64,000 bases of DNA from Alphaproteobacteria bacterium (GTDB taxonomy: Bacteria; Pseudomonadota; Alphaproteobacteria; Micavibrionales; Micavibrionaceae), in NCBI GenBank assembly GCA_009929775.1, contig RZZS01000004.1, forward strand, positions 1 to 64,000, given 5' to 3'. This document shows positions 34,373 through 58,384 of this stretch, piece after piece. A program made the position numbers and the translations under genes. Under the pieces are notes generated by a model, which was not told where the DNA came from, did no database searches, and saw only the letters and a program-made list of their open reading frames with translations. Every line of letters starts with the position of its first letter. The stretch's first letter is position 1.

Positions 34373-35923
34373 CTACGGACAGTAACGCGGATCGCTGTCC
34401 GGCATCGGCAGATCGAAGGAGCCGCAAATGCCCGACGAGTCGAACAAGGCATCAAGAAGCTCCTGTGGATCCTCAGCACTGTAGTATGTCCCTCCGGTAT
34501 CACGGGCAATTTGAGCCAGAGCCGGGTTATCTCCTGTAACATCGATGATATCGATCTGAAGGTGCGGATACCTCGTCAAATAATCGTCAACAAGGACATA
34601 GGGACTCGCCCCCTTGTTGCTGTAGCCATCCGAAATCACGACTATTTTGTTTGGCTGTTTTCCATCCGGCGGATCCCCGGTCTCCCTTGAAACATCGTCC
34701 AGCTCTCTTGCCAGCGCATCAATGTGCACGCCAAGCGGCGTCCATCCGTTCGGACACATGTGTTGTAGTCTAGATTCAACATCGCTTTGGATCGTGTCGT
34801 ACCTCGTATCGTCCGGCTCATCTGGATCAACGGAAACATCGACGTCGATCCCGGAACCGCCCTGAATCCGGTTGTAGACTTCGTCGGTGGTAATGCCATC
34901 GCGCTGCGTGCCCGGAATAAAGCCTGTAAACGCTGTCGTTCCGCTCGAATAGGAGGAGCCGGACTGTTCGATCAGGCTTCCCACCGCCGCGCGGGCCGGC
35001 AGCATTCGGCGCATCGCCCAGTGAGCGACATCGATCCGCCGACATGGCGTTCCGAGAGAGCCGGGACAACTTGTCTCCCTCTCGCCCATGCTGCCACTTG
35101 TATCCATCAGATACGCGACGTGCTTGGGCGGAGGGTCGATCGTGTCCTCGCAGGCTGCAGGAAGGTTCGTTGGTCGGTAGGTGATCCGCATCTGGAACGG
35201 TTCGTTTTCGTTCGCCGATTTGTTCACCGTGTTAACGAACACGGCGTCACTGTAATAGTTGCAGTTTTCGCCGGACAGGGCGATGTCGGTATCGCACGGA
35301 GATATAGGGTCGCCGCCATTTAGATGATAGGCGCCGTTCGTGTCCCATCCGACACTGAAAACTGTCTGCACGAGGTTGCCCGGAGCCGACGTAGCGTGAT
35401 TGCCAGCGGGATCCTGAACCGAGATATCACCAAACTCGCCGCTCGGGATTGTTGTCGTCGCATCGGTATAGGCATAGTCCCGGGTAACGGCATAGACGTA
35501 CCGGTGCTTGTAGCCGTCGGCGATCATCTCGTCGGGTAATCCCAGCGTGCGAACCGGAACGGCGCCGGTTCGGACAGGCAACCCGTCGCGTCCGGCAGCT
35601 TCAAACGTACCGGCGGCGAGAGTGGATGTCGGTCCGCAATCCGTCTCCGCACCGAACTCAGGCGTATCGAGGCCTGCTCTAAGCGATGCCGGGCAGGGAT
35701 AGCGACCGTTTTCGGTGAGGAACCATGCGAGCCTTTCCTGGATTTCAAGAAGACCGCTCTCCGTCTTCTGCCGGGTCTCATACTCCTGCCACAGGCGATA
35801 AAAATGCGAAGCGACAATTACGCCAAACCCGAGAACCACAAGCAAGAATGCCGCAGCGACAAGAGAGGCTCCGCTTTCGCTTTTGAAGCCTGTTTTTCCC
35901 TTTATCATTTCAATCTTTATCAT
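34373..35923 (-). CDS. Prepilin-like protein fused to a von Willebrand A domain
   Basis: The protein has 516 residues. A short basic leader and a hydrophobic helix (SGASLVAAAFLLVVLGFGV) resemble a type IV prepilin N-terminus, but the usual Glu at +5 is absent. Residues about 45-250 are homologous to the next gene's ectodomain (NGRYPCPA, GAVPVRTLGLPDEMIADG, YAVTRDY). From about residue 265 a vWA domain follows, with metal-site motif MDTSGSMGE and a later VVISDGYSNKG, ending with a Cys-containing tail. It is probably a minor pilin or tip adhesin displayed on a pilus or pseudopilus (inference). It lies 48 bases after the collar-type prepilin. The start could also be the ATG five codons later. 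Confidence 0.75.
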   Translation of the reverse strand: MIKIEMIKGKTGFKSESGASLVAAAFLLVVLGFGVIVASHFYRLWQEYETRQKTESGLLEIQERLAWFLTENGRYPCPASLRAGLDTPEFGAETDCGPTSTLAAGTFEAAGRDGLPVRTGAVPVRTLGLPDEMIADGYKHRYVYAVTRDYAYTDATTTIPSGEFGDISVQDPAGNHATSAPGNLVQTVFSVGWDTNGAYHLNGGDPISPCDTDIALSGENCNYYSDAVFVNTVNKSANENEPFQMRITYRPTNLPAACEDTIDPPPKHVAYLMDTSGSMGERETSCPGSLGTPCRRIDVAHWAMRRMLPARAAVGSLIEQSGSSYSSGTTAFTGFIPGTQRDGITTDEVYNRIQGGSGIDVDVSVDPDEPDDTRYDTIQSDVESRLQHMCPNGWTPLGVHIDALARELDDVSRETGDPPDGKQPNKIVVISDGYSNKGASPYVLVDDYLTRYPHLQIDIIDVTGDNPALAQIARDTGGTYYSAEDPQELLDALFDSSGICGSFDLPMPDSDPRYCP

Positions 35924-35971: not shown

Positions 35972-37030
35972 CTAGGAGGATTTTTCACAATAGGTCAGAG
36001 CAAGATACGGTGGCCTGTTTTCGTGCTCTTCATCCACCGTGGAATCAGTAATGGCAACATCATGGGTTATGGCTCCCGATGCCGGAAACGATAAGGTTTC
36101 CAGTTGCAGGCCGACATTGGAGACGTCCAGTTCAAGCTCCACCGCCTCTTCGCCCCCACGTTCCCCCAGAGTATAGGGGGCAGCACCCGTCATGCCGACA
36201 ATAGTCCTGCCCCTTGCCTCAACATGCTCGACCCAGCCCAAAGGACAGCTCGGCAGGTTGAACGCCACGACCGCGCCTGCCGGGACATTCCATCCATGAG
36301 GCGAGGCCGTGCGCACGGACACGATGTCATCCATCGAATTCGCGCCTTCGCTGAACAGCAGCGTGCGCACGAACATAGCATCGTCCCGGTCGCAGTTTTC
36401 CTCTTCCAGCGTACCGCCAGGACATGCAGTAGCAGCCCCTCCGCCGATCGGGACGGCTCCCTCGCCATTCCGTCCGTGGCTGACGATCACGTAGTGAGCA
36501 TAGCCATTATCGACATTTCTTACACCGCCGACAGGAGGAGGATTGACGACAGGATTGCCGTAACTATCAACGACGTCAATCGCCCCTTCAAGGCGATTGA
36601 ACGTCGCGGCGTCGGTCATCCGTTCGGTCACAGCAAGTGTAAAGCGCCCCCCCCAGGCATCGGCGATATACTCATCGGGCAAGCTCAGGGACCGGGTGGG
36701 AACCGCACCGATCGAAACGGGAAAACTGTTCAGTACGCCCGTGACTTCTGCGGTTCCAGACACCGCGCCGTTGGTCGCGCAATCCGCAACCTCGACGCCG
36801 AATTCGGCGGAGTCCGGAAGCACGTCCGCTCTAGCAGGACAAGGATAGCGTCCGTTCAGACTCAGGAAGAGCTGCATTGCGTCGTTGACCGCGTCAATGC
36901 GCTGCTCTGTCGTTCTGATCTGGGTTTCCTTCAGGTAAATGAGCAACAGCGAAGAGGCACCGGCCAGCAACAAGCCGACGATGACCATAACCAGTGCAAC
37001 CTCGATAAGAGTAAATCCGTCCCGTTTCAT
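35972..37030 (-). CDS. Type IV prepilin-like protein with phage-tail-collar-like C-terminal domain
   Basis: The protein has 352 residues from the ATG at 37030, chosen because GGAGG lies nine bases upstream and gives the short leader MKRDG before FTLIEVALVMVIVGLLLAG, a canonical prepilin-peptidase site with Glu at +5. Upstream in-frame ATGs (37063, 37105) give longer leaders. Residues about 55-230 share a conserved ectodomain with the following gene (NGRYPCPA...FGVEVADC...GAVPTRSLSLPDEYIAD). From about 250 to the end, the order AGAVVAFNLPSCPLGW, GRTIVGM, LGERGGEEAVEL and ENRPPYLALTYCEK resembles tail-collar / microcystin-dependent protein domains. The collar identification is by eye and tentative; the prepilin start is firm. 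Confidence 0.75.
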   Translation of the reverse strand: MKRDGFTLIEVALVMVIVGLLLAGASSLLLIYLKETQIRTTEQRIDAVNDAMQLFLSLNGRYPCPARADVLPDSAEFGVEVADCATNGAVSGTAEVTGVLNSFPVSIGAVPTRSLSLPDEYIADAWGGRFTLAVTERMTDAATFNRLEGAIDVVDSYGNPVVNPPPVGGVRNVDNGYAHYVIVSHGRNGEGAVPIGGGAATACPGGTLEEENCDRDDAMFVRTLLFSEGANSMDDIVSVRTASPHGWNVPAGAVVAFNLPSCPLGWVEHVEARGRTIVGMTGAAPYTLGERGGEEAVELELDVSNVGLQLETLSFPASGAITHDVAITDSTVDEEHENRPPYLALTYCEKSS

Positions 37031-37103
37031 TCCCCGCAGCCTCCGCCTTTGCGCTTTCTTCATTTTAACACGATGTCCGCAAGCGCGTCCAATTGCAAGC
37101 GCC

Positions 37104-37131
37104 AAAAGGCGGCCCGCCGGGGCCGCCTTTT
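37104..37131 (-). terminator. Rho-independent terminator of ftsZ
   Basis: AAAAGGCGGCC-(6)-GGCCGCCTTTT is a perfect 11-bp stem ending in four T on the minus strand, 19 bases after the ftsZ stop. It separates ftsZ from the two prepilin-like genes, which therefore need their own promoter in 37031-37103. Confidence 0.85.
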
Positions 37132-39185: not shown

Positions 39186-39899
39186 TCAGATCGACAGGCA
39201 GCACGCATCCGAATCATCCTTCATGGCCTTGTTCGGATGAAACAACACCCTTTCCGGTCGTTCTCGGCGCGGCATAATATCGATCCCCTGCTCTCTGGCG
39301 TAGCCTTCATGAAACAGCAGGTACGGCGCATAATACTCGTGGCTTGTCCACGGGCGGTACGGGCCGGCGTAAAAATGCGGCACGCCGATTTCCTGCCCTC
39401 CCGGATTGCCGTCGCCGAAAACAGCAATGACCCTGGCCATTGAACTCATTGCCGCGGCGTGCCATATCCCGGGCTCGCGATGCCGCGAACTGCTGGCGAG
39501 AAAACCCTCGCTTTCAAGTGGAAAGCCTCCGTCCGGATTGTAGACATAGCAGGAGATAAGAAGGTCGCATTCCGGCGCTCCGTCGAGAAAGTCGTTCCCA
39601 TACTCGAGGTTCAGCGGCAGGAAAGTCATATGAGGACTAATCGGTACTCCAATTCTATACAGAAGATCGAGCGTCGAACGCACATGAATCATATCACGCC
39701 GACATAAAGCGCCCGTTTCGTCGTCGTAACGGGCGCCTATCCCAATAACCCGCCGAAGGCCATTTTCATTCATGGCTGAAGCGAATTTTCCGAACTCCGC
39801 GCGCAAAGCGCCCTGCAGGCGCGCATAGGCGCCCCGATGATCACACGTCGCGTTCCTCAAATGTGAAATTCCGGGCCATTCTGCAAGGTCATCGTCCAT
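39186..39899 (-). CDS. Hypothetical protein between ftsA and ftsZ
   Basis: The 237-residue protein has no signal peptide, membrane segment or motif that I recognise. It is rich in aromatic residues and His and ends in DACCLSI. The middle contains PISPHMTFLPLNLEYGND and IAVFGDGNPGGQEIGVPHFY, which suggest an enzyme-like alpha/beta fold. It lies in the ftsA-ftsZ gap on the same strand, 54 bases after ftsA, an unusual place since these two genes normally adjoin. It may be a lineage-specific insertion into the cluster. Confidence 0.6.
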   Translation of the reverse strand: MDDDLAEWPGISHLRNATCDHRGAYARLQGALRAEFGKFASAMNENGLRRVIGIGARYDDETGALCRRDMIHVRSTLDLLYRIGVPISPHMTFLPLNLEYGNDFLDGAPECDLLISCYVYNPDGGFPLESEGFLASSSRHREPGIWHAAAMSSMARVIAVFGDGNPGGQEIGVPHFYAGPYRPWTSHEYYAPYLLFHEGYAREQGIDIMPRRERPERVLFHPNKAMKDDSDACCLSI

Positions 39900-41426: not shown

Positions 41427-42275
41427 TCAGATACCCTTTTCGAATCCCGCCTGCCAGGCTTGCGCTTCGCCGCGGCGGGGCCGGACGATGATACGGTCCA
41501 CAGTACGCAAATCAACGGCAACGATGTCCTTATCCAGAAGCCCGTCCTGTTCGTGCATCGCCATCAGCCGACGCAGCGCGAGCCCCTCTTCAGTCTCTGG
41601 CAGACTTACGTCGATCCCGGATTCGAGCTTGAGATCCCAGCGGCGATCCCCGATCCAGCTGGCATATTCGACTTTGTCTTTCAGGGCCGGCTCGGCATTC
41701 AGAAGACCCAGAAGCTTGGCGGCGTGCGCAGGCGCACCCGCGCCCACCAGGATGACAAGGTCCTCGAAAGCGGCGAGGCGCGTTTCCGCAAGCACTTCCC
41801 CATCCTCATCGATCAGCGAGAGATGCCCCCCCGACTGCCACAGCGCCAAAGGCTCGCGCTCGACCAGCTCGATAAAAATCGTGTCCGGCAAACGACGCTC
41901 CACGCGGGCGCTACGGACCCAGGAGACCTTCTCGAGTGCTATTTGCACCGCTACCGGATCAAAGGCGAGAACGGGATCGCCTTTGTCCATATTGACCAGC
42001 CCCTTGATGATCTCCGGGTCGGTATGAACGCGGCCTTCCACCAGTATATTGTCAACGGCAAAGCCCATCTGCGCCGAAAGCCGCAGACTTTCCTCACGCC
42101 CCCATGCCTGCGCCTTCTGGACGCCGCCCGAGAGAACGAACCAGCTCCCCAGCCATAGTAAAAAGACGACAACACCCGCGATCCGCCCGAACCGCCGAGC
42201 GAAATATACCAGCCGCTCGATCTTCGAATGGCGACGCCTCAGATAGACGCTCTTCCGGGTGCCTCTGGACCGCAT
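41427..42275 (-). CDS. ftsQ: Cell division protein FtsQ
   Basis: The protein has 282 residues. A basic cytoplasmic N-terminus and one membrane helix (IAGVVVFLLWLGSWFVL, about residues 33-50) precede a POTRA domain (DNILVEGRVHTDPEIIKGLV) and the FtsQ beta domain (RRLPDTIFIELVEREPLALW). It links early and late divisome proteins in the periplasm. It starts nine bases after ddl, as in typical dcw clusters. Confidence 0.95.
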   Translation of the reverse strand: MRSRGTRKSVYLRRRHSKIERLVYFARRFGRIAGVVVFLLWLGSWFVLSGGVQKAQAWGREESLRLSAQMGFAVDNILVEGRVHTDPEIIKGLVNMDKGDPVLAFDPVAVQIALEKVSWVRSARVERRLPDTIFIELVEREPLALWQSGGHLSLIDEDGEVLAETRLAAFEDLVILVGAGAPAHAAKLLGLLNAEPALKDKVEYASWIGDRRWDLKLESGIDVSLPETEEGLALRRLMAMHEQDGLLDKDIVAVDLRTVDRIIVRPRRGEAQAWQAGFEKGI

Positions 42276-42284
42276 GGTCGCCTG

Positions 42285-43496
42285 CTACCTCCTCTGAAAC
42301 AGCCGCGCATCCATCGGCACGGGGTCCGCAGGCAGATAGAGCGTTTCCTTGCGGGCCAGAGCCTCGTCGACCAGAAAAGTCAGGAGCCGCGTGAACAGAA
42401 CCGGAGACGAAGCCGCCTCCCACAGAAAATAGGCAAACGAACCCGGCTGCGGATTTACCTCGTTCAGCCAGAGTTCGCCGGTCTTCGAATTGCACAGGTA
42501 GTCGATGCGCGGCGCGCCGGTACCGTCCAGCGCAAGAAAAAGCGTTTCGGCCCAATAGCGGATATTCTGTTCCATCCCGGTTTCCATCGCCGGATTGATC
42601 TCGCGCGTGAGAGACAGCATGCCCTCGCTCTGCTCGCCGGGAGACTTCGTCCCTCCCGCGCCCTTCGTGCCACCACCACTAAGATACTTTTCCTTGAAGT
42701 CGAGGAGTTCGGCGCTGCTCTTCGGGCGCTCTATGGCCGACGTCGAAATCCCACCAGAAGCCCGGCTGACCGAGACATTATATTCGACCAGATGAGGAAC
42801 GCACGGCTCAACGATCGCACTCGTGTCGTATTCGAAGATCGTCGGCAGGCTGGCGCTCACTTCTTCTGCGTTGTGGGCCTTCGCAACGCCGATGGAACTT
42901 CCAAGGTGGCAAGGCTTGACGATCACCGGCCAGGGCATGTCGCCCAGAAGCTCCGAAATCTGGTCTTCAGGGATAAGATAGCCTTCGACCGGACGTCGCA
43001 AGATCGTGCAGGGGAGAACGGGAATACCAAGCGAGCGACAGATATGTTTCGTCGCCTCCTTGTCCATCCAGACGGACGATGCCAGCGTACGCGGCCCGGT
43101 ATAAGGCACGCCCGCCGCTTCGAACATACCCTGAATTTGACCATCCTCCCCGTAGAGCCCGTGGAAGGCTGGCATGGCGACGTCGAATTCGACCGGGCGG
43201 CGCGACCCCAGAAGGCCGGGCTTTTTTGGCATCAACGCCGGACGCCCCGTCGGCAGAACGTCGAGCGTTACCTCGGTCGCGCGCGCAAGCGTATAGGCGT
43301 CGGGCATGTAATTAGCACGGTCGCGCAGGACGTCGCCTGTCAACCAGCGCCCTTCGCGGGTTACGTAAACCGGAAACGCTTTGAACGTTTCCGTGTCGAT
43401 GGCCTGCAACACCTGGAGACCCGTGACGACACTCACATCATGTTCCGGTGAACGGCCACCGAAGAACACGGCAATGGTCTTTTGATTGGCGGTCAT
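42285..43496 (-). CDS. ddl: D-alanine--D-alanine ligase, long form
   Basis: The protein has about 403 residues from the ATG at 43496 (MTANQKTIAVFFGGRSPEHD); an ATG at 43553 adds 19 unlikely residues. The ATP-grasp features are HGLYGEDGQIQGMFEAAGVPYTG, the WPVIVKPCHLGSSIGV lobe, and LWLNEVNPQPGSFAYFLWE for metal binding. The protein is about 100 residues longer than the usual dcw DdlB and has a Gly/Ser-rich insert around GGGTKGAGGTKSPGE. The N-terminal sequence resembles the DdlA/Van-type long forms more than DdlB, so this may be a replacement of the ancestral gene. It makes D-Ala-D-Ala for peptidoglycan precursors. Confidence 0.9.
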   Translation of the reverse strand: MTANQKTIAVFFGGRSPEHDVSVVTGLQVLQAIDTETFKAFPVYVTREGRWLTGDVLRDRANYMPDAYTLARATEVTLDVLPTGRPALMPKKPGLLGSRRPVEFDVAMPAFHGLYGEDGQIQGMFEAAGVPYTGPRTLASSVWMDKEATKHICRSLGIPVLPCTILRRPVEGYLIPEDQISELLGDMPWPVIVKPCHLGSSIGVAKAHNAEEVSASLPTIFEYDTSAIVEPCVPHLVEYNVSVSRASGGISTSAIERPKSSAELLDFKEKYLSGGGTKGAGGTKSPGEQSEGMLSLTREINPAMETGMEQNIRYWAETLFLALDGTGAPRIDYLCNSKTGELWLNEVNPQPGSFAYFLWEAASSPVLFTRLLTFLVDEALARKETLYLPADPVPMDARLFQRR

Positions 43497-43612
43497 GTCT
43501 TGTATTGTTCCGTGGATCTGGAGAGATTCGGACCTTCTATCACGAGCGTTCATTTAAGCATGAAAGCCACAGGCGATAAAGAGCCTAAGCTTTCTCGTCC
43601 ATAGGCAATACG

Positions 43613-44401
43613 ATGACCGAAATGCGGCAGTATCAGGTTCCCGGCGCGACGATCTTCGCCTTTGCAAGCGGCCCCCAAAACGCGCCGGTTACCTTGATCT
43701 GGGCGCATGGCTGGGGGCAGTCGCATGCCGCTTTCGACGCGCTGCGCGCACCGTTTTCGAAACATGCCGGCTTCGCCTTCGATTTTCCCGGATTCGGGCA
43801 ATCGCCAGCGCCAGTCGAAGACTGGGGCACTGCCGACTACGCCGACGCCACCGCCAAGATCCTGCGTGGGCTGCCGGGAAAAAAAATATGGGTCGGCCAT
43901 TCATTCGGTTGCCGTGTCGGGATCCAGCTTGCCGCCCGGCATCCGGAGACCGTGGACGGGCTGTTCCTGATTGCCGCCGCGGGCTTGAAGCCCACGCGCC
44001 CAATTGCTCGACAGATTTATATAAAAGCCCGCGTAACCCTTTTCAAAATTCTCAAAAAGACCGTTCCGGAGAGATGCCACCCGGCTCTCTACGAAAGGTT
44101 CGGCAGCACGGATTACAAAAACGCGGGACCGATTCGCGCCCTGTTTGTCAGGGTCGTCAACGAAGACCTGTCCGAAGCCGCATCGAGGATCACCTGCCCC
44201 GTGCAGCTCGTCTACGGCGACAAAGACACCGAAACCCCGCCTGACATCGGCGAACGGTTTGCCCGATTGATGCCCGATTCAAAACTTACCCTGCTTTCAG
44301 GACAAGACCATTACAGCGTTCTCGGCGCCGGACGCCACCCGGTTGCCGGAAAGCTTCAGGAATTTATTTCTCTCGTCACAGGAACACACAACGCGGAATG
44401 A
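43613..44401 (+). CDS. Alpha/beta hydrolase
   Basis: The protein has 262 residues. It shows the oxyanion segment LIWAHGWGQSHAAFD, the nucleophile elbow VGHSFGCRV, the Asp in VYGDKDTETP and the His in GQDHYSVL, so a full catalytic triad is present. There is no signal peptide. It is divergent from ddl and 10 bases ahead of the membrane Mur ligase, with which it is probably co-transcribed. The substrate is unknown; a lipid or peptide ester is possible. Confidence 0.85.
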   Translation: MTEMRQYQVPGATIFAFASGPQNAPVTLIWAHGWGQSHAAFDALRAPFSKHAGFAFDFPGFGQSPAPVEDWGTADYADATAKILRGLPGKKIWVGHSFGCRVGIQLAARHPETVDGLFLIAAAGLKPTRPIARQIYIKARVTLFKILKKTVPERCHPALYERFGSTDYKNAGPIRALFVRVVNEDLSEAASRITCPVQLVYGDKDTETPPDIGERFARLMPDSKLTLLSGQDHYSVLGAGRHPVAGKLQEFISLVTGTHNAE

Positions 44402-44411
44402 TACCATCGAC

Positions 44412-46004
44412 ATGTCAGAGCTCGCACTTACCTTACTGATTCCGATAGCATTTATCATTTTCTCCACAAGGCGCCTGCTGACATATCTACATGTTTACCA
44501 ACAGGAGGAATATGATACGCGGCGTTTTTTGCGCTGGATGCTCGAAAAGCGGGCTTTCGACAAGCGCCTGACGGTTGCGCTCGCCGCCATATCGGCGCTT
44601 ATGCTCGTCATGCCGCCCGTCCAGTGGATCGGGGCTGGTCTGCTCGCGGCATCTTTCCTTGTGTTCGCGCTGCGTGAATCAGACCCGAGACGGAATTCGA
44701 AGAAAAAACTGATCCTGACGCCGCGCGCCCGGCGGATTCTTGCGCTTGCGCTTTTCTTTAACGCCGTAATGGCCGCAGGCGCCGCCTTTCCCCACATCCC
44801 GCTATTCTGGATTGTTCCGGTGCAGATCATTCCGTTTACGCTGGCTCTTGCCAATTTTGCCCTCAAGCCCCTTGAGGATACGATTCAGAAGAAATTCCGG
44901 GATGAAGCGCGCGCGAAGATAACAGAAATGAATCCGACAGTTATCGGCATCACTGGAAGTTTTGGAAAAACTTCGGTCAAACACATCCTCGGTCATATTC
45001 TCGGGACGGTCGCCCCGACGCTCATAACACCGGGCAGCGTCAATACGCCGATGGGAATTGCCCGAATCGTCCGCGAACAGCTCGAGCCGCGCCACAAATA
45101 TGCGGTCATTGAGATGGGTGCCTACGGTCCCGGTTCGATCGCCCGCCTGTGCCAGTTGACGCCGCCGGATTTCGGCGCTGTCACCGCGATCGGCCACGCG
45201 CATTACGAACGTTTCAAGACCCTTGAGACCGTTGCCACCGCCAAGTTCGAGATGGCCGACGCCGTTGCCTCCAAAGGGGGGCAAATGGTCGTCCACGAGG
45301 ATACACTTCGATATGAAAAACCTGGCGCGTTGCATAAAGAGCGTCCTGACATGTTCACGATCGTTGGCACAGGGGAAACTGCCCATGTCCGCATCGTCGG
45401 TAATCGCCAGACCGGGCACGGGATACAGGTGGACATCGTCTGGCAGGGCGAACGCTTTACACTGGAAGCCCCGCTTTACGGCAGCCACCACGGCACCAAC
45501 ATGGCGATTGCGTTCGGCATCGCCTGCAATCTCGGTCTGCCTGTCAAACATGTTCTGACAGCCCTCAAGACGACACCCCAGATTGCCCACCGGCTCGAGA
45601 TCAAGCCTCGGGGCGCGAAAGGGCTACTCATCGACGACGCCTATAACTCCAACCCGTCCGGCTTTCGCGCCGCGCTCGATATGCTGGACTTTCTCGCGAA
45701 CGGTCGGCGGCGTATCCTCATCACGCCGGGCATGGTCGAACTCGGCAAGGCCCATGACGAGGAACATGAAAAACTAGGCGATTACGCCGCCCGGAAAACC
45801 GACATCGTTATCGTCGTGCAGCCACAAAGAATCCGCAGCTTCGTGGAAGCCTGCTCGCGAGCGGAAACCGGCTTTCACCAGACTGTGGGGGTCGATTCGT
45901 TTGCGCAGGCACAGACGTGGCTTGCACAGAACGGGCATGAAGACGACGTTATCCTGCTCGAAAATGATCTACCTGATATATATGAAAAACTTCCCAGACT
46001 CTAG
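44412..46004 (+). CDS. Membrane-anchored Mur ligase with MurF-type motifs
   Basis: The protein has about 530 residues from the ATG at 44412 (MSELALTLLIP). Four or five membrane helices fill the first 170 residues in place of the MurF substrate-binding N-domain (the segment YLHVYQQEEYDTRRFLRWML follows the first). The Mur ligase core then shows GITGSFGKTSVKHIL (ATP loop), VIEMGAYGPGSIARL, IGHAHYERFKTLETVATAKFE (region of the carbamylated Lys), IDDAYNSNPSGFRAALDML and TPGMVELGKAHDEE. These match MurF at each catalytic site. It probably ligates a dipeptide or amino acid to a cell-wall precursor at the membrane. It sits opposite the long ddl gene. Confidence 0.85.
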   Translation: MSELALTLLIPIAFIIFSTRRLLTYLHVYQQEEYDTRRFLRWMLEKRAFDKRLTVALAAISALMLVMPPVQWIGAGLLAASFLVFALRESDPRRNSKKKLILTPRARRILALALFFNAVMAAGAAFPHIPLFWIVPVQIIPFTLALANFALKPLEDTIQKKFRDEARAKITEMNPTVIGITGSFGKTSVKHILGHILGTVAPTLITPGSVNTPMGIARIVREQLEPRHKYAVIEMGAYGPGSIARLCQLTPPDFGAVTAIGHAHYERFKTLETVATAKFEMADAVASKGGQMVVHEDTLRYEKPGALHKERPDMFTIVGTGETAHVRIVGNRQTGHGIQVDIVWQGERFTLEAPLYGSHHGTNMAIAFGIACNLGLPVKHVLTALKTTPQIAHRLEIKPRGAKGLLIDDAYNSNPSGFRAALDMLDFLANGRRRILITPGMVELGKAHDEEHEKLGDYAARKTDIVIVVQPQRIRSFVEACSRAETGFHQTVGVDSFAQAQTWLAQNGHEDDVILLENDLPDIYEKLPRL

Positions 46005-47838: not shown

Positions 47839-48759
47839 TTAACTCCGTTCGCCTATTCTTCTGATTTCCCAACGCAACTCGACGCCGCTGCGGGCCTGAA
47901 CGCGGCGACGCACCTCCTCCCCCAGATCCTCGAGGTCAGCCGCACAGGCAGTCCCTGTATTTATCATGAAATTGCAGTGCATCTCGCTCATTTTTGCCCC
48001 GCCAACCGTCAATCCACGGCATCCGGCCTCGTCAATCAGTTGCCACGCTTTATAACCTTCCGGGTTCGCGAAGGTCGAGCCGCCGGTCCGCTCGTGGATC
48101 GGCTGGGTCGATTCCCGCTGCGCCTTGATTTCGGCAAGCCTCGAGCGAATTGTTTCAGGGTCTCCCTTTGCTCCGCGCAAAACGCAATGCGTCAGGATCG
48201 TCCCTTCCGACAGGTTGGTATAACGATAGGCCATTTGCAAGCTCTCCGACGTATACGCAACGATTTCGCCACCTTTCGTGACGGCCTGCGCCTCGACAAG
48301 GACGCTTTTCATGTCCTGCCCGTAAGACCCGGCGTTCATCTTCAACGCGCCGCCGATTGTACCGGGAATGCCAACCAGAAACTCCATTCCGGTGATGCCC
48401 GCGTCCGCCGCAGCATTCGCAACACCCGCGTCCAGAACAGCCGCACCGACCTTGAAGGTGATGTCGTCCAGTGGCTCGATGAAATTGAACTCGCGCCCCA
48501 GCCGAACCACAATGCCGCGCACGCCGCCGTCGCGAACAATAGTGTTCGACATGACGCCAACGGTCGTCACAGGAATGTCCTCCGGGCACGCTTTCAGGAA
48601 CTGCGCCAGATCCCGCTCATCGACCGGTTTGAACAGCACATCCGCCGTCCCGCCGGTCCGGAACCACCCGACAGCGCCGAGCGGCGCGTCTTCAGTCATG
48701 CGGCCCCGGACGGGAGGAAGGTCGATGATGCGGGTTTTGGTTTTTGCGCGCATGGCCAC
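47839..48759 (-). CDS. murB: UDP-N-acetylenolpyruvoylglucosamine reductase
   Basis: The protein has 306 residues from the GTG at 48759, or 304 from the ATG at 48753. FAD-binding segments are TVGVMSNTIVRDGGVRGIVV and EFLVGIPGTIGGALKMNAGSYG; the catalytic Ser lies in ERTGGSTFANPEG and the C-terminal Glu in KMSEMHCNFMINTG. It reduces enolpyruvyl-UDP-GlcNAc to UDP-MurNAc. The family usually has SNLLVRDGG where this has SNTIVRDGG, a small change. It starts nine bases after murC. Confidence 0.96.
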   Translation of the reverse strand: MAMRAKTKTRIIDLPPVRGRMTEDAPLGAVGWFRTGGTADVLFKPVDERDLAQFLKACPEDIPVTTVGVMSNTIVRDGGVRGIVVRLGREFNFIEPLDDITFKVGAAVLDAGVANAAADAGITGMEFLVGIPGTIGGALKMNAGSYGQDMKSVLVEAQAVTKGGEIVAYTSESLQMAYRYTNLSEGTILTHCVLRGAKGDPETIRSRLAEIKAQRESTQPIHERTGGSTFANPEGYKAWQLIDEAGCRGLTVGGAKMSEMHCNFMINTGTACAADLEDLGEEVRRRVQARSGVELRWEIRRIGERS

Positions 48760-54785: not shown

Positions 54786-55871
54786 CTATCTCAGCTTCAA
54801 CGTGCTCAATCCCACCAGCGCCAGTATCACGGCGATAATCCAGAACCTTATCACGACCGTCGGTTCCGACCAGCCCTTTTTCTCGAAGTGGTGGTGGAGA
54901 GGGGCCATAGCGAAAACCCGCTTGCCCGTAAGCTTGAACGAGGCGACCTGCACGATCACCGACACGGTTTCCAGCACGAACAGGCCGCCAATAATCGCGA
55001 GAACGATTTCGTGCTTGACGATCACCGCAATCGTGCCCAGCCCCGCCCCCATCGACAGCGAGCCGGTGTCACCCATGAACACGGCAGCAGGCGGGGCGTT
55101 GTACCACAAAAAACCCATGCCCGCGCCGATCAGCGCGCCGCAGATAATGGCGAGTTCGCCTGCGCCCGCCACGTGATGGATACCGAGATAGGCTGAATAG
55201 TCGGTGCGCCCGACAAGATAGGCGATCAGGCCGAACGACATCGCGGCGATCATCACCGGCACGATGGCCAGCCCGTCAAGACCGTCGGTCAGGTTAACGG
55301 CGTTGGACGAACCGACGATGACGAGCATCGCAAAGGGGATCATGAACAGGCCGAGCGGCAGGAGAAAGTCCTTCACGAAGGGCAGCGCGAGACCGGTTCC
55401 GTATTCCCAGCGCTGGACGTACAGATACGCCATGACGGCGGCAAAGGCGACGCCGAATTCGAGCACGAGACGAAGATTGCCGGGAATGCCCTTATGCGAC
55501 TGGCGGGTCAGCTTGGCGTAATCGTCCGCGAATCCTATGGCCCCGAACGCGAAGACCACACCCAGGACGATCCAGACGTAAAGGTTCGACAAATCCGCCC
55601 AGAGAAGCGTCGAGACCCCGGCTGAAATCAGGATCATCAGCCCGCCCATAGTCGGCGTTCCCGCCTTGGCGAGGTGGGACTCTGGACCGTCCGTGCGGAT
55701 CGGCTGGCCGTTCTTCTGCTTGCGCTTGAGCCAGCGAATAAAACGGGGCCCGATCAGGAAACAGATGACGAGCGCGGTGAGGATCGCCCCGCCCGTGCGA
55801 AACGTCTGGTAGTTAAAGAGGTTGAACAGGATGACATCCTGCGCATACGGCGTCAGAAAATTATAAAGCAT
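54786..55871 (-). CDS. mraY: Phospho-N-acetylmuramoyl-pentapeptide transferase
   Basis: The protein has 361 residues from the ATG at 55871 ([12 protein letters not shown]); an extended frame to 56132 would run over the murF-like gene and is rejected. Ten membrane helices are expected. Motifs are [58 protein letters not shown] and [13 protein letters not shown]. It forms lipid I. It overlaps the murF-like gene by 11 bases. Confidence 0.97.
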
Positions 55872-56904
55872 ACTCCGCGTCCGGCCCTTTGAGCATCTTC
55901 GAGGGCAAGGCGCGCAGGGTTTCGACGATGGCGTCGACGGCGCCGCTTTTCGACTTGCGCACCATGACCACATCGCCCGGGGACAAAACGTCGGGCACGA
56001 TTTCGCCCATGGTCCCGTTTCCGTTTGCCGTGCGGTCGCCCCGGCCCTGCATGGATTGCCCCATGTACACGAGGTCGAGGTTAGCGGCTTTCGTGGGCAA
56101 ATCCAATCGCCCATCGAACGGCTCGGAAGCATCCATATGGCTCAGGAAGGCCATTCTCCGCCCTCCTCGGCCCGGATCGACCAGGGCGAGCACCTGAAAG
56201 GCCGGGGCGGCGGGCCGGGCGCAACACGCGCGGTTGTCGCCCAGAATACTGACGTTACAGGAAGATGACATGCGATTGCGTTCGTCCCATGCAGCTTCCA
56301 GCGCCCGCCCCGCCCGCGTCAGGTCGTGCCCGCTCACCACCGCCGCCAGCAGCGCGTACAAAGCTGTGGTTAAGTCCGCACCGGGGTCCGGCAGGGTCAG
56401 GGAAACTTTCTCAGCCATAACATCGAAGGTCGCGCGAACGCCGTTCCCGGCCCGCAGCGATTCGCAGATCATGGCGGAGGACGTTTCCTCTTCGCCGATC
56501 GAAAACAACCCGACCGAACCGCTCTCGCGCGCCGCCGCCGCAACGCTCCGGTAATTTGCGCTCGCCCGGTCGCAGATAACGATCCCGCCGGGCTCCATGC
56601 CGTCGAGCGCGTCCTCGTTCCCGTCCTCGACAAGGAGAATATGCGGTCGGGCGAGCCATGTCAGGAAGGCCGTCTCGGCCGCGTTCGTACCGGTAATGTC
56701 CACAACGGCGTAATCAGCCGCGTCCGGCAGGCTCGCCAGCGTCGCCGCGGCCGATTCGGCGCTGTGGGACGCGCCGAGCTTCGAAAACAGCGCGTGGACG
56801 GTCTTGCGCAACGCCGCGGAGCCGCTCACCGCGATAACCAGCGCCCCGGTCGTTCGCCGCCCGACTTCCGCCGCATCAAGCAAATCATCAGAAGAAACAC
56901 TCAT
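55861..56904 (-). CDS. murF: Degenerate MurF homologue, probable pseudoenzyme
   Basis: The protein has about 347 residues from the ATG at 56904, one base after the murE stop. It sits in the invariant murF slot between murE and mraY and keeps the general Mur-ligase layout: [22 protein letters not shown] matches the MurF segment with EIGANHPGEIAYLT, and [21 protein letters not shown] matches the MurF C-terminus. However, the N-terminal UDP-binding domain is missing, the ATP loop reads [11 protein letters not shown] in place of TGSxGKT, and the DDAYNANP motif is replaced by [12 protein letters not shown]. Normal MurF is about 450-480 residues. The frame is open and overlaps mraY by 11 bases, so it is expressed rather than a decayed gene. 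Catalysis is unlikely. Confidence 0.8.
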
Positions 56905-56905
56905 T

Positions 56906-58384
56906 CTACTTTTTCTCCAATAAGGTAATAGCCTTTTCCGTTTCCCGGACATCGTCAAACGGCTCGACGACATCGCCGATAATCTGGCCCTGTTCGTGCC
57001 CCTTGCCCGCGATCACGAGCACGTCGCCTTTCTTCAGTTCCGCTACCGTCTCGCGGATCGCGCGGGCACGGCCCTCGATCTCAATGGCGCCGGGCGCGCC
57101 TTCGAGCACGGCCTTGCGGATAGCGGCAGGGTTTTCCGAACGGGGATTGTCATCAGTAATAACCAGCCTGTCCGAGAGTTCTGCGCCGATCCGGCCCATG
57201 ATCGGTCGCTTTCCGGAGTCACGGTCGCCGCCGCACCCCACCAGACACAAAAGTCGCCCCCGCACATGCGGACGCAGCGTGCGCAGGACCTTTTCGAGCG
57301 CGTCGGGTTTGTGGGCGTAGTCGACATAGATGGCCGCGCCTTCCGGGTGGCCACCGACGAACTGAAGCCTTCCAGGCGCGCCCTCGAGCTTTTTGAGCGC
57401 GGCGATCAAACGGTCGCGCCGCGCGGTATCGTCCGGTGCCTCGGAAAGCGCCAGACCGAAGGCCAGCACGGCGTTGAAAGCCTGAAATTCCCCGGCCAGC
57501 GGGACGATAAAATCGAAACGGTCGCCGCGGTCGTTAAGCATAACGCGGCAGCCTTCAGGTACCGTTTCGACGCGCTCAATCCGGAGGGCTTCCGCGTTGC
57601 GCCCGTAATCGAAAACGCGAACGCCGCGCTCCTTCAGGATACCGATCAGGCGCGCCCCGTATTCGTCGTCTGCGTTGATAACTGCAACGCCGTCCTCGGG
57701 CAGCAATTCGGTGAAGAGCCGGAGCTTCGAGCGAAAGTAGTCCTCCATATCGTCGTGATAGTCGAGATGGTCGCGCGAGAGGTTCGTGAACCCCGCGGCT
57801 CTTATCGCGACCCCGTCGAGACGGTACTGGTCGAGTCCGTGACTTGATGCCTCCATCGCCAGACGGGTAACGCCCGCCGCGGCGAGGTCGGCAAGGGTCG
57901 CGTGCAGCGCCACCGGGTCGGGCGTCGTCAGCGAGCCGTAGCGGTTCACGTCGCGCGACTGCACACCCAGCGTGCCCAGCGAACCGGCCACGGCACCCGT
58001 CGCTTCCCAGATCTGGCGCATGAAGTGAACGGTCGAGGTCTTTCCGCTCGTCCCCGTGACAGCGGCAATAACGTCCGGCTGGCGGCGGTAAAAGGCAGCG
58101 GCAATCCGCGAGAGGTCCCGGCGCGGATTATCGCTTGTGGCCAGCTTCGCCTCGCCCGCATCGTCCGGCAAAACCGTCCCGGACGGCGCGAGAACGGCAA
58201 CCGCTCCGTTCCGGACCGCGTCGCCGATATAATCCCGGCCGTCCGCCTTCGTTCCCGGCAAGGCCGCGAACAGAAAATTTTCCCCGGCGGAGCGGCTGTC
58301 GAGCGTCACGCCCCGGACCCCCTCCAGCAGGGCTTCGATATCCCGATCAGTAAGAGACAAGATGCTTTTCCTCTTTGTGGACAT
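56906..58384 (-). CDS. murE: UDP-MurNAc-tripeptide ligase (meso-diaminopimelate adding)
   Basis: The protein has 492 residues. The N-domain is GVTLDSRSAGENFLFAALPG, the ATP loop AVTGTSGKTSTVHFM, the substrate segment MEASSHGLDQYRL, then NLSRDHLDYHDDMEDYF with the carbamylated-Lys neighbourhood. The DNPRSENP motif indicates meso-diaminopimelate rather than lysine. It overlaps ftsI by 38 bases. It is intact, in contrast to the next gene. Confidence 0.97.
   Translation of the reverse strand: MSTKRKSILSLTDRDIEALLEGVRGVTLDSRSAGENFLFAALPGTKADGRDYIGDAVRNGAVAVLAPSGTVLPDDAGEAKLATSDNPRRDLSRIAAAFYRRQPDVIAAVTGTSGKTSTVHFMRQIWEATGAVAGSLGTLGVQSRDVNRYGSLTTPDPVALHATLADLAAAGVTRLAMEASSHGLDQYRLDGVAIRAAGFTNLSRDHLDYHDDMEDYFRSKLRLFTELLPEDGVAVINADDEYGARLIGILKERGVRVFDYGRNAEALRIERVETVPEGCRVMLNDRGDRFDFIVPLAGEFQAFNAVLAFGLALSEAPDDTARRDRLIAALKKLEGAPGRLQFVGGHPEGAAIYVDYAHKPDALEKVLRTLRPHVRGRLLCLVGCGGDRDSGKRPIMGRIGAELSDRLVITDDNPRSENPAAIRKAVLEGAPGAIEIEGRARAIRETVAELKKGDVLVIAGKGHEQGQIIGDVVEPFDDVRETEKAITLLEKK

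Follow-up and report, generated by a model that had tools for sequence, protein, structure and literature searches.

The question raised by this locus is how the terminal dipeptide of the cell-wall precursor is added in a bacterium whose murF is degenerate. MurF and Ddl carry out textbook cytoplasmic steps of cell-wall synthesis and are drug targets, and the MurF step is, as far as we are aware, thought to be nearly universal. The DNA analyzed, hereafter the window, is a stretch of 64,000 nucleotides (positions 1 to 64,000 of contig RZZS01000004.1, assembly GCA_009929775.1) from an alphaproteobacterium of the family Micavibrionaceae. It encodes a long Ddl and, divergently, an operon of an alpha/beta hydrolase and a membrane-embedded MurF-type ligase. 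On the sequence comparisons given below, the overall best explanation is that this triad has likely replaced canonical Ddl and MurF in adding the dipeptide, and the narrower claim that the membrane ligase replaces MurF is very likely.

The genome containing the window (2.99 Mb in 190 contigs, 100% complete, 3.7% contamination) encodes six proteins matching Mur_ligase_M, namely MurE, MurC, MurD, the membrane ligase, an Mpl/MurC-like protein and FolC. No canonical MurF was found among these six matches, and the inventory being genome-wide, a canonical murF hidden elsewhere was ruled out. An earlier note, made from the letters of the window, had set this absence beforehand as one test of its proposal that the Ddl and the ligase act at the terminal dipeptide, and the absence holds. 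The murF position of the division and cell-wall (dcw) gene cluster, between canonical murE (56906-58384) and mraY (54786-55760; start approximate, the open reading frame (ORF) reaching further upstream), is occupied by a relic of 347 residues (55861-56904), all three genes lying on the minus strand. The relic matched the NCBIfam MurF model at 9e-16 and no Pfam Mur domain, and its domain 1 and catalytic motifs, including the P-loop, are gone, in agreement with the degenerate MurF noted earlier. Judged by these losses, the dcw MurF of the window is catalytically dead.

Related genomes form a decay series, from dcw MurF proteins of 414-430 residues with a recognizable domain 1, through the 347 residues of the window and relics of about 150 residues, to none at all. 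The relics of about 150 residues, seen in several genera, consist of the C-terminal part only, and in one genome (G043) the slot is closed, with murE abutting mraY. The ratio of nonsynonymous to synonymous substitution rates (dN/dS) of the relic was 0.08-0.13, similar to that of murE, indicating that the relics are kept as non-catalytic proteins; the MurF relic would be a retained pseudoenzyme under purifying selection. AlphaFold2 prediction of the MurF relic with four sequences was uninformative (mean predicted local distance difference test (pLDDT) score 38.9). Relics were recorded in the window and at loci L037, L038, L039, L040, L041, L043, L044, L048, L050 and L071, and the relic carries an IVPDVxAPGDF motif.

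The module itself is arranged around a divergent intergenic region of 116 bases (43497-43612), for which 117 had been given before; the divergent operon of hydrolase and 530-residue ligase was as described. On the plus strand, the hydrolase (262 residues, 43613-44401; Abhydrolase_1, 4.5e-21) is followed by the membrane ligase (530 residues, 44412-46004; Mur_ligase_M, 8.9e-32; Mur_ligase_C, 2e-12). The Ddl-type ATP-grasp ligase (403 residues, 42285-43496, minus strand) starts with an ATG at 43496, and its frame stays open to 43553 (422 residues). The dcw cluster is otherwise ordinary, and the long Ddl takes its ddl position between murB/murC and ftsQ, so that the placement of a 403-residue Ddl in the slot of DdlB was borne out by its coordinates and its ftsQ neighbor.

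The membrane ligase of the window scored 220.7 bits against TIGR01143 (murF), below the curated cut-off of 288.6, and other members from the order scored 184-241 bits. Since the match starts only at profile position 56 (56-403 of 418), MurF domain 1 is absent; the start lies at 56-65 of 418 in most membrane ligases. Domain 1 is replaced by a predicted membrane domain of five transmembrane (TM) helices and a linker helix (residues 1-173, 44412-44930, plus strand). The AlphaFold2 model (mean pLDDT 94.3, predicted template modeling score 0.91) places helices at residues 2-31, 51-66, 68-88, 104-125 and 130-150 ahead of the Mur fold, then the linker helix (152-173), the Mur ATPase domain and the C-terminal domain. 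Hydropathy of the N-terminus was consistent with these helices, and the closest solved structures were those of MurF (4qf5, E 2.5e-23).

When 19 canonical MurF proteins of the same order were aligned with 50 ligases drawn from several phyla, the ligases proved to keep the P-loop (GSFGKTS in the window, residues 182-188, 44955-44975, plus strand), Glu234, His264, Lys278 (the AKxE lysine), Asn363, Arg394 and Asp409, as in MurF. Two segments differ consistently: YNSNPxGF stands where canonical MurF has YNAsPxxM (YNxxPxSM), and LLENDLPD stands near the C terminus where canonical MurF has KGS. The latter belongs to a family signature, LLENDLPDxYE (residues 515-525, 45954-45986, plus strand), that replaces the canonical VKGS motif. 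Because the catalytic residues are kept and these two segments are changed, the membrane ligase is expected to be active with an altered substrate side. Alignment, profile span and structure prediction thus agree with the earlier description of intact MurF motifs behind a membrane N-terminus in place of the substrate domain.

The replacement is supported by the distribution of the two enzymes. Of 58 related genomes, 21 had the membrane ligase alone, with murF scores of 200-234 bits and 44-54% identity to the copy in the window; 32 had only a canonical MurF above the cut-off, and none had both. Extension to 103 genomes of the order with completeness of 90% or better gave 39 with the ligase only, 57 with canonical MurF only (including G106, whose truncated MurF falls just under the cut-off), one with both (G128) and six with neither; the anti-association was strong (Fisher P = 8e-21, uncorrected for phylogeny). 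A gene tree of MurC, MraY, MurG, FtsW and MurB from 42 genomes required at least three switches when branches with at least 95% support in the Shimodaira-Hasegawa-like approximate likelihood ratio test were counted. The window falls inside a supported set of six genomes, and since the other five carry canonical MurF, its swap is distinct from the one in a ligase clade of 15 genomes and from that in the G043/G055 lineage. Both states also occur within the single genus g44 (G130 versus G044 and G053). The co-occurrence check that the earlier note had called for therefore came out as an almost perfect anti-correlation of the ligase with canonical MurF, in the order and in named genomes elsewhere.

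Outside the order, a scan of named genomes gave at least 548 relatives, including those in Blastochloris sulfoviridis, Desulfovibrio sp. A2, Chamaesiphon polymorphus, Diplocloster agilis and Flavilitoribacter nigricans. Canonical MurF was missing from 18 of the 20 named ligase genomes searched whole. Within the Lachnospirales, 212 of 245 genomes had a canonical MurF above the cut-off, and about 25 had only a sub-threshold MurF-like match of the Diplocloster type. Hydrolase, ligase and ddl form one operon, in that order, in Clostridia, Melainabacteria, Obscuribacterales and Chitinophagales. No full-length plasmid copy of the module was found. The one phage candidate, an unannotated fecal "phage" contig with 32% identity, was set aside as probably bacterial DNA.

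The hydrolase travels with the ligase. Each of the 21 ligase genomes gave a match to its subfamily profile (229-327 bits), and the other 37 gave none beyond a single weak match (87 bits), so the linked "pair" of Ddl and ligase proposed earlier is better described as a trio, with the hydrolase as an obligate third member. The protein has a GHSFG nucleophile motif, Asp205, His233 and a subfamily motif, FGSxDY; its neighbors among solved structures were diverse esterases and C-C hydrolases that name no substrate. All three triad genes showed dN/dS of 0.04-0.12, that is, strong purifying selection. No fourth gene recurred in the operon: dcw genes apart, the recurrent neighbors were antisense ORFs and common transporters alone.

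The type of Ddl likewise tracks the type of MurF. Canonical genomes have a Ddl of 312-360 residues in the murB-ftsQ slot, ligase genomes one of about 400-450 residues, and one genome (G007) holds both. In a further set of 21 genomes, Diplocloster among them, the partner Ddl was mostly the sole Ddl. Against TIGR01205, the window Ddl scored 214.7 bits, under the curated cut-off of 245.65, which some clostridial partner Ddl proteins exceed. In 25 aligned rows, E18, H19 and S22 of the SxEHxVS donor motif and K270 and Y271, the omega-loop Lys-Tyr, were invariant. L358 and W359, invariant in the partner-Ddl rows, belong to a changed segment, in which the canonical NTxPGxTSHSL reads NxxPGSxx[YF][YF]LWE in partner Ddl of all phyla sampled, the window included. 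By motif alignment, the acceptor-site serine within SHSL, which we take to be Ser281 of E. coli DdlB, corresponds to an aromatic column. Given this altered acceptor motif, which the ligase parallels with a change of its own, the terminal dipeptide may differ from D-Ala-D-Ala. An ATP-grasp pair in the window genome (L061, G000:C62:8617-10582) was rejected as a second Ddl because it lacks SxEHxVS and lies beside a lysine-2,3-aminomutase-like radical SAM gene. Three canonical-MurF genomes, G002 (C9), G012 (C51) and G017 (C38), have frames of 633-819 residues with two tandem Ddl-like domains.

Mur ligases activate a carboxyl group through an acyl-phosphate. By the mechanism that we favor, the long Ddl would make D-Ala-D-Ala or a closely similar dipeptide, and the membrane ligase, working on the cytoplasmic side of the membrane, would use ATP to activate the terminal carboxyl of the tripeptide in this manner and join this dipeptide to it. 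The hydrolase would be needed in the pathway, perhaps for clearing wrong dipeptides or esters, a role at which we can only guess. That the ligase performs MurF's step is inferred from its mutual exclusion with MurF. As the ligase has a membrane domain and no longer a UDP-binding one, its tripeptide substrate would most likely be presented on a polyprenyl carrier, as lipid I or lipid II tripeptide, and dipeptide addition would then fall after MraY, not before it. MurT also lacks the UDP-binding domain, and GatD/MurT acts on lipid II (PMC6113224); its structure led to the argument that such a domain would not be needed there and that, if present, a clash with the membrane would be likely (PMC6113224). 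Applied to the membrane ligase, this argument favors a lipid-linked substrate, to which we give about an even chance. The terminal dipeptide addition at the membrane suggested earlier is thus well supported, through the exclusion, as regards the MurF step, and its lipid-linked substrate is a likely but unproven part.

Two other accounts of the chemistry keep the replacement and change its details. The ligase could replace MurF and still use soluble UDP-MurNAc-tripeptide, its helices merely tethering it near MraY for channeling. Tethering alone would account for the helices, the M and C catalytic domains are MurF-like, and neither MraY nor MurG has changed in parallel: coevolution of either with the switch was sought as support for a lipid-linked substrate, and none was found. 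This account seems rather unlikely to us, as an entire UDP-binding domain has been lost, not just an anchor added, and MurT, which has lost the same domain, works on lipid II. Of similar probability, and compatible with the mechanism that we favor except in its product, is that the triad installs another terminal dipeptide or depsipeptide (D-Ala-X), made by the Ddl and attached by the ligase while the hydrolase clears D-Ala-D-Ala. This would amount to van-like stem-peptide remodeling turned into the sole pathway, sometimes with a VanX-like dipeptidase. It would explain why Ddl and MurF switch jointly and together with a hydrolase, why the donor motif is kept and the acceptor motif changed across several phyla, and why the YNxxPxSM segment of the ligase is altered. 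Pointing in this direction as well is a gene for a VanX-type M15 dipeptidase, absent from the window module, that stands close to the triad at seven loci (L081:6408-7214, L083:6356-7183, L086:6376-7209, L172:5277-6116, L085:2838-3638, L097:5170-6291 and L142:4379-5053). As a marker of the triad it was rejected, however, since M15 genes occur genome-wide in 18 of 21 triad genomes and 22 of 37 others. The omega-loop Lys-Tyr of the Ddl is moreover conserved, no recurrent dehydrogenase or racemase neighbor was found at triad loci, and what the changed residues do is deduced from canonical Ddl.

Several observations weigh against replacement as a general rule. Six near-complete genomes (G025, G042, G052, G057, G078 and G113) had neither enzyme detected, by assembly gaps or a further replacement, and they show the error rate of absence calls from metagenome-assembled genomes (MAGs). 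Both enzymes were present in G128 and, among the 20 named genomes, in Flavilitoribacter, whose MurF lies within an 852-residue frame that is probably a MurF-alanine racemase fusion, and in one Clostridia genome; the triad thus does not replace MurF in every case, and among Clostridia the two may coexist more often than the sample shows. A canonical Ddl is present in Diplocloster in addition. No MraY column tracks the switch, so there is no sign that MraY has adapted to a tripeptide, an adaptation that may be unnecessary. G128 (L172, L173), with the triad elsewhere in the genome, a 315-bit MurF, a murB-ftsQ interval empty of ddl and the long Ddl as its only one, looks like a possible evolutionary intermediate in which ddl was lost first. 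The genomes with neither or both enzymes, and the fragmentation of MAG assemblies, would also fit a triad that is an accessory or modification system beside a true MurF that is unassembled or too diverged to detect. We regard this as highly improbable: loss of canonical MurF tracks the triad over many genomes and phyla, and the dcw MurF slot is assembled and either holds a dead relic or is closed up.

Around the module, murB (47839-48759) and ftsQ (41427-42275), both on the minus strand, flank the swapped ddl slot. Two further ORFs of the window, one of 516 residues adjoining lpxC (34373-35923) and one of 237 residues between ftsZ and ftsA (39186-39899), had no Pfam or NCBIfam match and may be genes or shadow ORFs. 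A protein of 377 residues between ftsZ and lpxC (35972-37105) has a type IV pilin-like N-methylation motif.

No description of a membrane MurF was found in the open-access literature, subscription literature being outside the search. A near-universal cytoplasmic step seems to be done differently in this bacterium, as it does in unrelated members of several phyla. We tentatively suggest, as possible though short of an even chance, a widespread second architecture in which a polytopic ligase, served by a Ddl of its own and by an obligate hydrolase, adds the dipeptide after MraY to a lipid-linked tripeptide, possibly with a non-D-Ala terminus, while MurF decays to a kept non-catalytic protein. 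If so, the order of steps in precursor assembly differs in many bacteria, gut Clostridia included. The terminal dipeptide is the binding target of vancomycin, and it would perhaps differ too. The replacement also makes it testable why MurF carries a UDP-binding domain and what the retained dead relic does.

Compared with known systems, the membrane ligase shares with MurF (TIGR01143) the central ATPase and C-terminal domains, the P-loop, the catalytic Glu, His, Lys, Asn, Arg and Asp and the closest fold (4qf5), and differs by five TM helices in place of UDP-binding domain 1, by LLENDLPD for KGS, by YNSNPxGF and by its score under the cut-off. MurE-MurF and MurF-Alr fusions are also architectural variants of MurF, yet they retain the full soluble enzyme. 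The partner Ddl resembles Ddl (TIGR01205, PRK01966 group) in its ATP-grasp fold, donor motif and omega-loop Lys-Tyr, and differs in its length of about 400 residues, its longer omega region, its [YF][YF]LWE for SHSL and its travelling with hydrolase and ligase. The MurT/GatD lipid II isoglutaminyl synthase likewise has a Mur ligase that lacks the UDP-binding domain; MurT, however, has no TM domain, a Cys4 zinc ribbon and the amidotransferase GatD as partner, none of which the window ligase shares, as it has too few cysteines for the ribbon, no GatD is encoded in the module, and it matches MurF far better than MurT (E 3e-65 versus 1e-4). Like van operons of the VanA/VanX type, the triad combines a Ddl-type ligase with a hydrolase and sometimes a nearby M15 dipeptidase; unlike them, no VanH or VanRS was seen with it, and it brings its own MurF-type ligase, can sit in the dcw cluster and probably replaces the core pathway.

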